DNA from: Kiloniella laminariae
GTDB taxonomy: Bacteria > Pseudomonadota > Alphaproteobacteria > Kiloniellales > Kiloniellaceae
Length of the DNA stretch: 64,000 bases
Direction of reading: 5' to 3'
Assembly: GCF_027214005.1 (NCBI RefSeq)
Contig: NZ_JAPWGY010000001.1
Coordinates: 62,001 to 126,000, forward strand
Part shown: piece after piece, positions 5,681-58,526 of the stretch
How positions within the stretch are numbered: position 1 is the stretch's first letter
How the letters are laid out: the number at the start of each line of letters is the position of its first letter
Position numbers and translations under genes: made by a program
Notes under the pieces: generated by a model
The model's input: only the letters and a program-made list of their open reading frames with translations
The model's database searches: none
Told to the model about the DNA's origin: nothing

Positions 5681-6745
5681 CTATCTTTGAAGTTCAGAGG
5701 AAACGCGATGTTCGAGTTCAATCAGCTTTTGCTTGCGCCAGAGCCCGCCACCGTACCCGGTCAGGGATCCATCTGCACCAATGACACGGTGACAGGGGAT
5801 AACAATGGCAATCTGGTTGGCGCCGTTGGCCTGGGCGACGGCCCGTGTGGCTGTGGGGCGTCCGATCCTGCGGGCAATGTCGCTGTAGCTACGGGTTTCG
5901 CCGACAGGAATTTCGCGAAGGGCCTGCCAGACATGCCGGGTGAAAGGCGTGCCATGTAAAGCCAGAGGTACTGTGAATTCCTGTTTTTTACTCTGGAAAA
6001 AGGCCGAGAGTTCGGCTTCGATCTGATCCGTTGGGTCAAAGCGGCCAAAACCGAGATTGTTTCGGGTTAACTTGCGCAGTTTTTGCAGTTCTGTTGGCAA
6101 GGCCTTACGGTCGGCAAATTCCAGCAGATGCAGGGCCGATTTGTCACTGACCGCGACCATAGCCCCCAGAGGTGTATCAATCCAGTCAGCTCTGAGCAGT
6201 GCGTCATTTGTGAAGTGGGCCGGAGTGGTGCCCAGCAGTTTGGCAAAGGCTGTCCTGAAGGCGCTGGGCGAAGAAAAGCCGGCATCAAGCTGGGCATCAA
6301 TCATGCGCCCCCCGTTGGAAATCGTCTCGAAACCATCCCTGATTCGCGAACGCCGGGCCATCTCGAGAAAGGTTATGCCAAAGTGCCTTTTGAAAAGACG
6401 TCGGACGGTAGAAGGGTCCAGGCCATGTTTTATAATGTCGTCCTCACCCCAGCGGTAGGCGGGGTTCTGCTCCAAAGCACTCAGAAGTTTCTGGATCGAA
6501 GGATCTGTTTCGGCAGCGGGGGCCAGAGGATAACAACGTTTACAAGGACGATATCCGGCGTCAATGCATTCGGCGACGCTTTCAAAAAATTGACAGTTCT
6601 CTGATTTTGGTTTGCGAGCGGGGCAGGTGAGGCGACAGAAAACCCCTGTAGATCTGACTGCGACATAAACGCGACCGTCGTAGGCCGGGTTCCGTTCGAC
6701 CAGAGCCGTATAAAGAGTTTGATGGTCGGGAGACTGGAACAACAT
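5681..6745 (-). CDS. ada: Ada: alkylation-response regulator / O6-methylguanine-DNA methyltransferase
   Basis: Encodes 354 residues, the length of full Ada. The N-terminal zinc domain has four cysteines (C37, C41, C68, C71 in FCRLTCPARKP and RPCKRC), which in Ada accept methyl groups from phosphotriesters. An AraC-type helix-turn-helix follows (near residues 95-180). The C-terminal methyltransferase domain carries the PCHRV active site with Cys near residue 318, then GSLTGYGGGLWRKQ. Both suicide cysteines are present, so the protein should be active as repair enzyme and as self-methylated activator. It is the first gene of a probable two-gene operon with the downstream lyase-family gene. Confidence 0.93.
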   Translation of the reverse strand: MLFQSPDHQTLYTALVERNPAYDGRVYVAVRSTGVFCRLTCPARKPKSENCQFFESVAECIDAGYRPCKRCYPLAPAAETDPSIQKLLSALEQNPAYRWGEDDIIKHGLDPSTVRRLFKRHFGITFLEMARRSRIRDGFETISNGGRMIDAQLDAGFSSPSAFRTAFAKLLGTTPAHFTNDALLRADWIDTPLGAMVAVSDKSALHLLEFADRKALPTELQKLRKLTRNNLGFGRFDPTDQIEAELSAFFQSKKQEFTVPLALHGTPFTRHVWQALREIPVGETRSYSDIARRIGRPTATRAVAQANGANQIAIVIPCHRVIGADGSLTGYGGGLWRKQKLIELEHRVSSELQR

Positions 6746-6917
6746 GGTCTGGCTAATCTGTTTCTGGCTGTAATTGGACTGATGAAGAGTACCATAATCT
6801 CCTGTTTAGCGTCTGTCCGTCCAGAAACGGGCAGTTATTAAATAAAGTCTCGCATGTTGGAAGGATTTAAAGGCGATTTTGTCGTTCCTTAATCTGGGAA
6901 TCCTGTCAGGCTTGCAC

Positions 6918-6923: not shown

Positions 6924-6946
6924 TTCTGCGATGTTAAGAGAAGATC

Positions 6947-6997
6947 ATGAAACAATATCGCACACTTCAGGCTTTGAATTGGTGGCGTTCCGAATAG
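6947..6997 (+). CDS. Trp-rich leader peptide of trpS
   Basis: A 16-codon ORF, MKQYRTLQALNWWRSE, starts at ATG 6947 with the purine-rich AAGAGAAG at 6936-6943 just upstream, and ends at TAG 6995-6997. Two consecutive Trp codons (6980-6985) lie four codons before the stop. Tryptophan is rare in proteins, so a tandem pair in a tiny ORF directly before a tryptophanyl-tRNA synthetase gene is the signature of an attenuator leader. Stalling at these codons would cover the first attenuator segment and free the second. The product itself probably has no function. Confidence 0.85.
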   Translation: MKQYRTLQALNWWRSE

Positions 6998-7068
6998 GAG
7001 CGGCGCGATGGTATTTCATGTTTTGATTTAATATTTCGAGCCGCCATATGGGCGGCTTTATCTTTTCT
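6986..7068 (+). promoter_or_regulatory. Transcription attenuator of trpS
   Basis: Three mutually exclusive pairings can be drawn. Segment 1:2 is CGTTCC (6986-6991) with GGAGCG (6997-7002), starting right after the Trp codons. Segment 2:3, the antiterminator, is GCGGCGCGA (7000-7008) with TCGAGCCGC (7036-7044): eight pairs and one G.A mismatch. Segment 3:4 is the terminator. Ribosome stalling at Trp codons when charged tRNA-Trp is low would block 1:2, allow 2:3 and so prevent termination. This follows the classical trp attenuation logic; the pairings were made by eye and not by energy calculation. Confidence 0.75.
7039..7068 (+). terminator. Intrinsic terminator of the trpS attenuator
   Basis: AGCCGCC (7039-7045) and GGCGGCT (7051-7057) pair perfectly over 7 bp around the loop ATATG, followed by the U-rich tract TTATCTTTTCTT. 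It lies between the leader ORF and the trpS start at 7110. The 5' arm overlaps the antiterminator's distal arm. Confidence 0.8.
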
Positions 7069-7109
7069 TGCAGCATCATGTGGCGGCTTCCTTTATCTGG
7101 AGAAAGCAA

Positions 7110-8120
7110 ATGTCACATCCCAAGCCTGTCATCCTTACGGGAGATAGAACCACCGGTCCTCTTCATATCGGGCATTATGCGGGGTCGCTGAGAAATCGGC
7201 TCAGGTTCCAGCTTAGCCACGAACAGTATCTCTTGTTGGCAGATATGCAGGCCCTGACTGATAACACAGGTGATATAAAAAAAGTGTGCTCCAATGTGCT
7301 GGAAGTTGCATTGGATTATCTTGCCGTTGGTATCGACCCGCAACAGTCAACCATCTGTTTGCAGTCCCAACTTCCAGCTCTTGCCGAGTTGTCGATGCTT
7401 TATCTGAATTTTGTGACGGTGGCCCGATTGGAACGGAACCCGACCATTCGCGAGGAAATCAGGGCGCGGGAATTTGGTCGGGATATTCCTGCCGGTTTCC
7501 TCTGTTATCCTGCTGCGCAAGCCGCTGATATCACTGCTTTCAAAGCAACAGTGATTCCTGTTGGTGAAGATCAGGCCCCGATCATTGAGCAGACCAATGA
7601 AATCATCCGGCGGATCAATACAACAGCCGGGCTTGTCGTTCTGCCCGAGGTCACGGCCGTTATTCCCAAATCCGGTCGCCTGCCCGGGATAAACGGCAAG
7701 GCGAAGATGAGTAAATCGCTTGGTAATGCCATAGCGCTTTCTGCATCAGCAGATGAAATCTCTGCAGCGGTGAAACAGATGTTCACAGACCCCAAGCACC
7801 TTAGGATTGAGGATCCAGGGCAGGTTGAAGGGAACGTTGTTTTTTCCTATCTGGATGCCTTTGATGAGGATCAGGACGAAGTTGAACATTTAAAGACACT
7901 CTATCGGCAAGGTGGACTGGGGGATGCCGTGATAAAGCGTCGGCTGGATGAGGTTCTGCAAAATTTTCTTGGCCCGGTTCGTGACAGACGGGCTTTATTG
8001 TCTCGTGATCTTGGCTATGTACAGCAAGTGGTACGCGAAGGAACGGAACGCGCGCGGGCAATTACAGAGGCAACCTATGCAGAGGTGACCCGGGCACTTG
8101 GGCTTTTTCAGTTTCAGTAG
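7110..8120 (+). CDS. trpS: Tryptophanyl-tRNA synthetase, auxiliary (type II) form
   Basis: Encodes 336 residues from ATG 7110, with GGAG 8-11 bases upstream; an earlier in-frame TTG at 7068 lies in the terminator U-tract. Class I signatures are clear: GPLHIGHYAGSL (HIGH motif, residues 16-27), PVGEDQAP, and KMSKS in GKAKMSKSLGNA. The opening TGDRTTGPLHIGH and the block VARLERNPT resemble the second TrpRS type of Clostridium, Deinococcus and Streptomyces, not the E. coli-like enzyme (which reads SGAQPSGxLTIGNY). It charges tRNA-Trp in the cytoplasm. An alphaproteobacterium normally also has a housekeeping trpS elsewhere, so this is probably an extra copy. Expression is likely controlled by the upstream Trp-Trp leader and attenuator. 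Confidence 0.92.
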   Translation: MSHPKPVILTGDRTTGPLHIGHYAGSLRNRLRFQLSHEQYLLLADMQALTDNTGDIKKVCSNVLEVALDYLAVGIDPQQSTICLQSQLPALAELSMLYLNFVTVARLERNPTIREEIRAREFGRDIPAGFLCYPAAQAADITAFKATVIPVGEDQAPIIEQTNEIIRRINTTAGLVVLPEVTAVIPKSGRLPGINGKAKMSKSLGNAIALSASADEISAAVKQMFTDPKHLRIEDPGQVEGNVVFSYLDAFDEDQDEVEHLKTLYRQGGLGDAVIKRRLDEVLQNFLGPVRDRRALLSRDLGYVQQVVREGTERARAITEATYAEVTRALGLFQFQ

Positions 8121-8156: not shown

Positions 8157-8624
8157 TCAGCGTCGGATAATCGGTTCATGCTTGATCGGAAAATTCACGG
8201 AACGGGCGATGAAGCACATTTCCGAAGCGCTGTGGTGCAGTTTTTCTGCCACGGCTGGATCAGAGTTTTTGGAAATCGTAACCTCTGGCCTGAGAAGGGC
8301 TGAGGTAAATTGACCGCTGCCATCGCTGTTCATGCTCATGGTGGCGGTCGCCCGGTCTTCATATTCAAGAACGGTTATCTTGTTCACGGAACAAAGGTGC
8401 AAATACCAGAGCATGTGGCAGGAAGAAATTGCCCCGAGCAACATATCTTCAGGGTTATGACGGCTTTTGTCTCCGCGAAAGGCTGGATCTGAAGAGCCGG
8501 GAAGAGATGGCTTTCCTGTAATCAGGATGTTGTAATCCCGGTCATAGGCTTTATAGGTTTCTGTGCCGGTTCCGCGATTTCCCGTCCAAACCAGATGTGT
8601 TTGGTAACTGTGGTTCTGTGTCAT
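8157..8624 (-). CDS. OsmC family protein
   Basis: Encodes 155 residues from ATG 8624 (MTQNHSYQTHLVWTGNRGTG); the frame extends to 8705 but the extension lacks family similarity and overlaps the upstream gene. The two family cysteines are present in AISSCHMLWYLHLC and in SEMCFIARSVNFP. OsmC/Ohr proteins are thiol peroxidases that reduce organic hydroperoxides. The longer spacing and HMLWYLHLC motif suggest the OsmC-like subgroup rather than Ohr. It lies 49 bp downstream of an alpha/beta hydrolase gene on the same strand and is probably cotranscribed with it. Confidence 0.82.
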   Translation of the reverse strand: MTQNHSYQTHLVWTGNRGTGTETYKAYDRDYNILITGKPSLPGSSDPAFRGDKSRHNPEDMLLGAISSCHMLWYLHLCSVNKITVLEYEDRATATMSMNSDGSGQFTSALLRPEVTISKNSDPAVAEKLHHSASEMCFIARSVNFPIKHEPIIRR

Positions 8625-8673
8625 GTTTCTTGCCTGTAATCTCGAGAGTAGAAGAGCGCTTGTGACCGGGCCC

Positions 8674-9417
8674 TTATCGGCAGCAGTCCAGGACTGCCTG
8701 TGCAAAAGCTTCCGGATCCTGCAACATCATCAGATGCCCTGTATCCGGGATAACAATGTCTTGTGTTGCCATTTCCCGAACCCATTTCGGGACATCCCAG
8801 CCTGCAGCAGAATTTTCCCCTGCGATAAGGCCGAAGGGCAGATCCGAGATCATAAGCTCCTTGATGATTTCAAGATATTCGGGATCATCAGTGGCCTGAA
8901 CCACGGCTCTGGCTTCAGCCTGGATGGTGGAGGCGGGCTGGTTATCGAGCCAGGCCCGTGCCAGTGCTGAGGTCCAGTCGGTTATTTCAACACCGGATCC
9001 TGTTAGCCAGTTATCGGCATCGGCTTTGTAATCCGTAAGAATTTTCTCGACTTCCGACAGAGGCATCCGGGAAATCTGTTCCGACCAGAAGGCATCTTTC
9101 AATGTGAAGTTTCCTTCGACAGAAGTCAGCGAGGCAACAAAGTCCGGTCTTTTTCCAGCGATGAGAACCGACACGGCCCCACCAACTGAATGGCCCACCA
9201 GGTTAACCGGGCCAAGGTTGTGTGTTTGTATATAGTTGACGATGTGTTCGGCCTGATCGGCCAGGACAAGATTGTTAGTTGGCTGTTCCGTAAACATTCC
9301 ATAACCAATCAGATCAGGGGTATGGATTTCGATATCATGCTTGGCAAAGGGGAGCAGGACCTGAGGCACTCTGAGGTGTCCGAACAGGCCATGAACAAAG
9401 AGGATTGGACGCATCAT
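8674..9417 (-). CDS. Alpha/beta hydrolase
   Basis: Encodes 247 residues. The oxyanion segment FVHGLFGH is at residues 7-14, the nucleophile elbow is GHSVGG (Ser near residue 78), and the catalytic His is in DTGHLMMLQDPEAF near the C-terminus. No signal peptide is seen, so the protein is cytoplasmic. It precedes the OsmC gene and is divergent from the LysR gene at 9548, which probably controls the pair. The substrate is unknown; esterase, lactonase or haloperoxidase-like activity are all possible. Confidence 0.82.
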   Translation of the reverse strand: MMRPILFVHGLFGHLRVPQVLLPFAKHDIEIHTPDLIGYGMFTEQPTNNLVLADQAEHIVNYIQTHNLGPVNLVGHSVGGAVSVLIAGKRPDFVASLTSVEGNFTLKDAFWSEQISRMPLSEVEKILTDYKADADNWLTGSGVEITDWTSALARAWLDNQPASTIQAEARAVVQATDDPEYLEIIKELMISDLPFGLIAGENSAAGWDVPKWVREMATQDIVIPDTGHLMMLQDPEAFAQAVLDCCR

Positions 9418-58449: not shown

Positions 58450-58526
58450 GGGCCTGTAGTTCAGTTGGTTAGAACCCTCCGCTCATAACGGAGCCGTCGC
58501 AGGTTCGAGTCCTGCCGGGCCCACCA
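58450..58526 (+). tRNA. tRNA with CAT anticodon (Ile2 or elongator Met)
   Basis: 77 nt with encoded CCA. Acceptor GGGCCTG (58450-58456) pairs with CGGGCCC (58516-58522) with one G.U. D-stem GTTC/GAAC, anticodon stem CTCCG/CGGAG with loop CTCATAA (anticodon CAT at 58484-58486), T-stem GCAGG/CCTGC with loop TTCGAGT. Loop CTCATAA excludes the initiator type. C4-G69 and C5-G68 pairs resemble the TilS-modified tRNA-Ile2 of E. coli, so Ile2 is favoured, but the elongator Met cannot be excluded by eye. A weak TTGAAG/AACATT pair with 17-bp spacing lies upstream. Confidence 0.93.

Follow-up and report, generated by a model that had tools for sequence, protein, structure and literature searches.

In Streptomyces coelicolor, the auxiliary and indolmycin-resistant tryptophanyl-tRNA synthetase (TrpRS) encoded by trpRS1 is reportedly controlled by an attenuator. 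The pheST leader of Escherichia coli, a gammaproteobacterium, contains Phe codons and serves a housekeeping enzyme, and it differs thereby from the Kiloniella leader considered here. Ribosome-mediated attenuation of this aminoacyl-tRNA synthetase operon, in Proteobacteria, is mentioned in the part of PMC1262725 that was accessible, and attenuators of Streptomyces trpS genes are described there and in the accessible part of PMC8079986. To the extent covered by these parts, the Streptomyces trpS leaders (trpRS1 and others) resemble the Kiloniella one in having a leader with Trp codons and competing hairpins before trpS. However, trpL2 of S. lividans (MMTRTCTQLWRAA, followed by a stop) has one Trp and is without a U-rich stretch, unlike the Kiloniella leader, and trpL1 of the same species is termed leaderless (PMC8079986, same part).

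The trpL-trpE(G) attenuator of alphaproteobacteria (Sinorhizobium rnTrpL/peTrpL, Bradyrhizobium) shares with our leader the WW or WWW peptide and the same order of segments, and its start at or by the AUG is predicted for ours as well; the 5' end of Sinorhizobium rnTrpL is the ATG of trpL, according to the sections of PMC7298713 at hand. It controls anthranilate synthase, whereas the Kiloniella leader would control a tRNA synthetase. T-box leaders of Firmicutes serve the same purpose, but they sense tRNA directly and without a leader peptide. Such a T-box precedes the orthologue of Lactobacillus selangorensis (L074:2745-2955; RF00230, 114.4 bits), one of the six Firmicute loci scanned. In the window, by which we mean the whole stretch of 64,000 nucleotides of DNA analysed from this marine Kiloniella, RF00230 has no match, the sole match at the gathering threshold being a tRNA (58450-58523), and a T-box leader was rejected on this ground. 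No Rfam leader family reached the same threshold upstream of trpS in the window or at L001, L003, L035, L052 and L056.

The nearest solved relative of the enzyme itself is TrpRS II of Deinococcus radiodurans (PDB chains 1yi8 and 2a4m, E ~5e-109), likewise a second TrpRS, which is described with NO synthase in the available part of PMC9437257. None of the 18 neighbouring proteins scanned in our study, several of them without a family match, was named as NO synthase. From the two-enzyme arrangement one might guess, by analogy, that the auxiliary TrpRS of the window would be resistant to indolmycin.

The mechanism proposed below belongs to a type already described (Streptomyces trpRS1, pheST, trpL), and its form at an alphaproteobacterial trpS was not found in the literature searched. 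No paper on such a leader appeared among the matches listed, in a search with thin coverage of subscription journals, so that an earlier mention is possible, and PMC2965389, when inspected for trpS, gave no mention of it. Leader-peptide control of an auxiliary TrpRS would thereby be extended from Actinobacteria to a broad and seemingly mobile clade of Alphaproteobacteria, Bradyrhizobium and Rhizobium species included.

The second tryptophanyl-tRNA synthetase gene and its leader

The trpS gene of the window encodes a second, auxiliary TrpRS. Its product scores 220.6 bits against TIGR00233, above the cut-off of 176.75, and contains GPLHIGHY and KMSKS, which we take to be the signature motifs of TrpRS. 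The other TrpRS of this genome is 34% identical to it, and the nearest named relatives of the window's enzyme are the proteins of K. laminariae (85%) and K. litopenaei (75%). A TrpRS match was obtained in 57 of 58 genomes, the window's own counted among them; an enzyme of the window's type was present in six (G000, G002, G004, G006, G018, G037), always beside a second TrpRS. In 385 genomes of the class, close matches (E <= 1e-90) occurred in 32, and 25 of these 32 are genomes of 0.6-2.1 Mb. Alphaproteobacteria with small genomes (L117-L139, ~0.6-2.1 Mb) possess a TrpRS of the window's type, 47-56% identical, without a Trp leader: none was detected at the 23 orthologues listed, 18 of which were rightly placed (misplaced: L125, L126, L130, L136 and L138).

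Translation of trpS starts at ATG 7110, preceded by the Shine-Dalgarno sequence (SD) GGAG at 7099-7102. The elements found at the locus are collected in Table 1.

Table 1. Elements of the leader and of trpS, with positions in the window
Element	Position	Strand	Basis
-35 element TTGCAC (predicted)	6912-6917	+	pattern scan
-10 element TAAGAG (predicted), ends 6 nt before leader ATG	6935-6940	+	pattern scan
Leader ORF MKQYRTLQALNWWRSE and stop (16 codons, ending NWWRSE and stop)	6947-6997	+	sequence; relatives
Tandem Trp codons (sensor)	6980-6985	+	conserved in clade
Segment 1, pairs with 6997-7002	6986-6991	+	sequence; pairing in 97.9% of cells in group 2
Segment 2, pairs with segment 1 or (antiterminator) segment 3	6997-7008	+	pairing counts, folding
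Segment 3: antiterminator 3' arm, terminator 5' arm and loop; complementary to segment 5	7036-7050	+	pairing counts, folding
Intrinsic terminator 3:4, stem 7038-7058, U-rich tail TATCTTTTCT	7038-7068	+	folding, T count
Segment 5, alternatively part of hairpin over trpS ribosome-binding site	7077-7089	+	complementarity, folding
Hairpin 5:6, pairs the SD and start-codon bases 2 and 3	7078-7118	+	local folding
Auxiliary tryptophanyl-tRNA synthetase gene trpS, 336 aa	7110-8120	+	TIGR00233 score, sequence

An earlier note, made from this sequence alone, had proposed ribosome-mediated attenuation of trpS by means of a leader ORF with two Trp codons (6980-6985), a 1:2 hairpin (6986-6991 with 6997-7002), an antiterminator (7000-7008 with 7036-7044) and a terminator with a U-tract (7039-7057). 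All these elements were recovered, and the attenuation itself is supported by conservation of the Trp codons and helices within the auxiliary clade. New relative to that note are the auxiliary nature of the enzyme, the spread of the leader through a whole clade, the predicted promoter close before the leader AUG, and the conserved segment 5 and SD hairpin that lie between terminator and trpS. The ORF is read directly, from ATG 6947 to the stop TAG 6995-6997, and CGTTCC at 6986-6991 is complementary to GGAGCG at 6997-7002. Folding of the two alternative states, suggested in the same note, gave the expected pair of structures. The RNA left free by a stalled ribosome and still without arm 4 (6992-7047) folds into the antiterminator (-16.2 kcal/mol, z -2.03; matched by 9 of 200 shuffles), in which 7000-7004 and 7006-7008 pair with 7036-7038 and 7040-7044. 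When segment 2 is occupied instead, the terminator forms from 7007-7068 (-16.9; matched by 2 of 200 shuffles). Once arm 4 exists, the terminator prevails even in the stalled frame (6992-7068, z -0.71), hence the choice between the two structures must be kinetic, as in other attenuators. The fold of 6940-7068 as a whole beats 200 of 200 dinucleotide shuffles (z -3.63).

Judged from sequence comparison, it is very probable that a ribosome-mediated Trp attenuator controls the auxiliary TrpRS. When Trp-tRNA is scarce, either by starvation or because an inhibitor blocks the housekeeping TrpRS, the ribosome would stall on UGG-UGG and cover segment 1, its front edge lying ~12 nt downstream of where the first Trp codon begins. 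Helix 2:3 would then form, polymerase would read into trpS, and the second TrpRS would be made. When Trp-tRNA is plentiful, the ribosome would move to the stop codon and cover segment 2, and helix 3:4 would terminate transcription, leaving a leader RNA of ~120 nt. By analogy with described attenuators, we infer that uncharged tRNA-Trp would raise trpS expression. The spare enzyme is most likely switched on when charged Trp tRNA is low, and the attenuator would explain in simple terms under which conditions a spare synthetase comes into use.

Conservation of the leader in the auxiliary clade

The leader is found throughout one clade and is not peculiar to a single genome. In a tree of 117 TrpRS rows, a set without Streptomyces sequences, the 50 rows of alphaproteobacterial auxiliary TrpRS (one of which, L050, is named only 'uncultured bacterium') group in one clade (support 100/99) that excludes the enzymes of Firmicutes, betaproteobacteria, myxobacteria and small-genome alphaproteobacteria. 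Bradyrhizobium occurs at two places in this tree. Duplicates were removed before counting (L032, L033 and L059, from the same genomes as L003, L004 and L005), as were L043 and L044, whose contigs start at the gene so that upstream sequence is absent. Among the 51 clade loci with upstream sequence (49 distinct ones, since L061 and L150 are identical to L060 and L055), tandem Trp codons stand at the same place in 48, and a single Trp codon, positioned by eye, is found there in the remaining three (L007, L053, L114). Thus, every one of the 51 has a Trp codon at the proper place. Counted from the first Trp codon through the trpS start codon, the distance is 116-155 nt across the clade, and each of the 35 leaders with a promoter match has 10 or 11 codons ahead of its Trp codons. 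The usual stop codon is lost in the leaders of L063 and L151, where the ORF runs on.

A leader with Trp codons and hairpins was not found in orthologues outside the auxiliary clade. A WW ORF occurs within 400 nt upstream of 2 of 47 other orthologues and of 4 of 25 housekeeping trpS genes, none having the form of the leader, and in 31 of 1480 shuffles derived from 37 upstream regions (one of which, L007, was wrongly oriented, and some genomes were counted twice). The comparison of orthologous upstream regions for Trp codons, put forward in the earlier note, was therefore positive throughout the clade, with the leader absent outside it.

The leaders were divided into two groups, drawn by eye and before T residues were counted. 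Group 1 comprises 31 distinct leaders (Kiloniella, most Bradyrhizobium, rhodobacterial and others) and is nested as one clade (100/99) inside group 2, which has 18. At least five T in the nine positions after the hairpin were found in all 31 leaders of group 1 and in 8 of the 18 of group 2, the other 10 being without a U-tract. As L063 and L065, which lie on deep branches, have U-tracts, either state, with or without the tract, may be the older one. The contrast between the groups lets the conversion of one form of control into another be asked.

A promoter pattern (TTGNNN, 16-18 nt, TANNNN, 5-8 nt, leader ATG) is present at 35 of the 49 distinct loci, that is at 31 of 31 in group 1 and 4 of 18 in group 2, and in 38 of 4800 shuffles; this comparison has a small bias, as every in-frame ATG was tried in the observed sequences and only the nearest ATG in the shuffles. 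A scan for the sigma-70 consensus returned 0 promoters. From the spacing of the predicted elements, the mRNA should start at or next to the leader AUG. In two Bradyrhizobium loci (L041, L047), an inverted repeat, CTAGAGCCCCGTTCCGATT...AATCGGAACGGGGCTCTAG, is located ~50-90 nt upstream of the leader ATG, directly before the promoter.

Covariation and folding energies were assessed in 36 leaders, 20 of the 31 in group 1 (near-identical ones omitted) and 16 of the 18 in group 2 (without L063 and L065); counts of leaders are not independent, and related sequences can exceed covariation shuffles without any structure. Helix 1:2, in a count confined to group 2, is paired in 97.9% of cells, with two pairs changed on both sides. 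For helix 3:5 in the same 16 leaders the values are 98.2% and one pair. Jointly, these two helices contain 7 double-change cells against 1.3 in shuffles, a value reached by 0 of 500; the number of doubly changed pairs is equalled in 34 of 500. Helix 3:4 is paired in 98.1% of cells in the 20 group-1 leaders, and one pair has double changes. Helix 2:3, with its inner stem, is paired in 86.5% of cells in the 16 group-2 leaders (alignment A1), a fraction reached by 14 of 500 shuffles, and one slid control has 7 double-change cells versus 4 in the structure. In the 20 group-1 leaders (alignment A2) the same helix is paired in 88.3% of cells, which 0 of 500 shuffles reach, and shows one double change, reached by 84 of 500. 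Slid controls of the five pairing counts gave 17-73% of cells paired. The earlier note had also pointed to hairpin covariation in relatives as a check. In the alignments, helices 1:2 and 3:4 show clear compensatory changes, those of 2:3 are weak, and the mutually exclusive helices 1:2, 2:3 and 3:4 are, by these pairing counts, conserved in the auxiliary clade.

A fifth segment and the trpS start site

The 5' half of the terminator stem plus the loop (7038-7050) can form 13 contiguous pairs, two of them G-U, with segment 5, just upstream of the SD of trpS. In each of the 36 leaders (20/20 in group 1, 16/16 in group 2), no more than 5% of dinucleotide shuffles attain a 3:5 complementarity as good. 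In the 20 group-1 leaders (A2), helix 3:5 is paired in 95.6% of cells and has 5 double-change cells against 1.0, with a covariation score of 0.223 versus 0.147 (0 of 500 shuffles), and its compensatory changes reach the terminator loop (A2 columns 71-74 with 112-115). Pairings 3:5 and 5:6 share segment 5 and are largely mutually exclusive. In local folds, the probability that the SD of the auxiliary trpS is open does not exceed 0.26 in 34 of 36 leaders, the exceptions being L057 (0.42) and L058 (0.47). Its mean openness is 0.14 versus 0.28 in shuffles and falls under the shuffle mean in 32 of 36. For 20 housekeeping trpS genes (5 of 25 loci were dropped as having no usable SD) the corresponding values are 0.41 and 0.29, and openness is under the shuffle mean in 8 of 20.

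Segment 5 and the SD hairpin point to a further lock, at the level of translation. In the read-through mRNA, segment 5 would choose between a hidden trpS start (5:6 together with 3:4) and a freed one (3:5). When macrostates were separated, 3:5 cut the cost of opening the start site relative to 3:4 in 36 of 36 leaders and relative to 2:3 in 35 of 36; the path from 2:3 to an open site cost less than that from 3:4 in 27 of 36 leaders and more in 5. For the window's own leader the result speaks against the lock, since 3:5 comes out as most stable in the stalled and in the non-stalled frame alike. On these mixed results, a translational backup lock on the trpS start site may be regarded as a fair but unproven reading, with roughly even chances of being right. 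The conserved segment 5 and the hidden start site offer a testable case of one leader controlling both transcription and translation.

Freeing of the SD by pairing of segment 2 with the CUCC of segment 5 was considered as well and rejected. Inspected by eye, this pairing looks good at no more than part of the loci (L048, L052, L054, L056), and it is poor in L053, L055, L057, L058 and L116.

Several other explanations have to be weighed. That the locus is a product of chance, an ordinary terminator next to a random WW ORF, has a negligible probability in our opinion. A WW ORF alone is no rarity, as one of at most 60 aa arises in 29 of 500 shuffles of the 400 nt upstream in the window; however, the Trp codons, arms and promoter are conserved across the clade, and it is the conservation of the Trp codons, compared with the controls, that rules chance out. 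Moreover, the upstream gene is divergent, so there is no transcript of that gene needing an end here. A chance ORF with a stray terminator was rejected on these comparative data. A more serious alternative, whose chances we put somewhat below even, is that attenuation does take place, but at the level of transcription only; segment 5 and the SD hairpin would then have no role in regulation and would result from general mRNA structure or from the high G+C content and repeated words of the leader. Segments 2, 4 and 5 do share GGCGGC-like words, so that complementarity to segment 3 comes partly free, and exposure of the SD hardly changes with ribosome position in unconstrained folds (31 group-1 and 17 group-2 leaders), being near equal in stalled and non-stalled frames (0.23 vs 0.20; 0.21 vs 0.19). 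Against it stand the 3:5 complementarity, which few shuffles equal in any of the 36 leaders, and its compensatory changes into the terminator loop; moreover, the SD is hidden at the auxiliary trpS but not at the housekeeping one.

For group 2, one may also suppose that control is mainly translational, access to the start site being set by 3:4, 2:3 and 3:5, with termination minor or Rho-assisted. The scarcity of U-tracts in this group relative to group 1, along with retention of 3:5 and the SD hairpin, speaks for it, yet folding gives no clear direction of the switch, the deep branches L063 and L065 carry U-tracts, and the window's own leader, having a U-tract, is not concerned; we consider this version unlikely. 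Still less probable is an additional action in trans of the terminated leader RNA and the 16-aa peptide, in the manner of Sinorhizobium rnTrpL/peTrpL. The predicted start at the AUG, as in rnTrpL (PMC7298713, in the part available), and the likeness to the Bradyrhizobium-type trpE(G) leader would agree with it, but upstream of its Trp codons the peptide differs greatly from one clade leader to the next.

A ribosome-mediated attenuator remains the preferred reading, and its fullest version would be a Trp switch of five segments and two levels. The same 5' arm and loop that build the terminator would act as antisequestrator of the trpS start, and one stalled ribosome would govern both termination and translation, in a leader-gene unit mobile among alphaproteobacteria, some lineages of which would have swapped one level of control for the other. 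We advance this composite scheme tentatively, and it may well prove wrong as a whole.

Origin and movement of the leader and gene

A covariance model built on 20 group-1 leaders (R1) was used to look for similar sequences. Applied to 53 sources, it recovered 7 of 7 group-1 leaders, all of them among its training rows; at E <= 0.01 it found 12 of 17 group-2 leaders (E 5e-6 to 0.007) and gave matches in 0 of 29 other sources. In this genome it detected one leader (E 2.3e-17), the next match having E 0.07. A scan of 385 genomes of the class, run with stricter filters under which the known group-2 leaders L114, L115 and L116 were missed, yielded 9 matches. Four were leaders of auxiliary trpS and one was a trpE(G) leader (L162); the other four (L161, L163, L164, L165) showed no Trp leader on reading and look like plain hairpins or terminators.

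The match of R1 to the trpE(G) leader covers positions 1-127 of the model (E 3.5e-5). This locus (L162:1471-1634) has the leader peptide MSIAVRPARFWWRTS, ending in a stop, and similar arms upstream of a fused trpE(G), and its peptide resembles Bradyrhizobium peTrpL, MSTAVAPARLWWRTS, as given in the accessible part of PMC7298713. A WW ORF of varied form was present at 12 of the 26 trpE(G) loci scanned. At L166, within the final 200 nt ahead of the trpE(G) gene (reverse strand), the leader's terminator arm and loop match, by eye, a stretch like segment 5 just before the SD; the fifth segment may be wider in occurrence than the trpS leaders. No WW leader was found within 450 nt of trpE or the housekeeping trpS of this genome, and since these Kiloniella genes are without one, the leader probably arrived together with the auxiliary trpS. 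It may have been derived from a trpE(G) leader elsewhere.

The surroundings of trpS are mostly unlike at the nine loci with neighbours listed, which suggests that leader and gene travel together; they seem to move horizontally as a unit. In the window, the divergent gene upstream of the leader (5681-6745) encodes an Ada-type methylated-DNA repair protein, and an OsmC-like gene (8157-8705) lies downstream of trpS. Both flank trpS in K. laminariae too, and the neighbours in K. litopenaei differ from those of the window. The close relatives L052 and L056 have in common an upstream ORF of 871 aa, which is CckA in L052. When an empty site was sought in other Kiloniella, ada was found in 2 of 7 genomes, and in one of them (G008) neither trpS nor OsmC was present in the available flanks. 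In Meridianimarinicoccus roseus, two contigs (L043 and L044) break 2 nt from identical copies of a window-type trpS, perhaps because the gene is there a repeat or a mobile copy.
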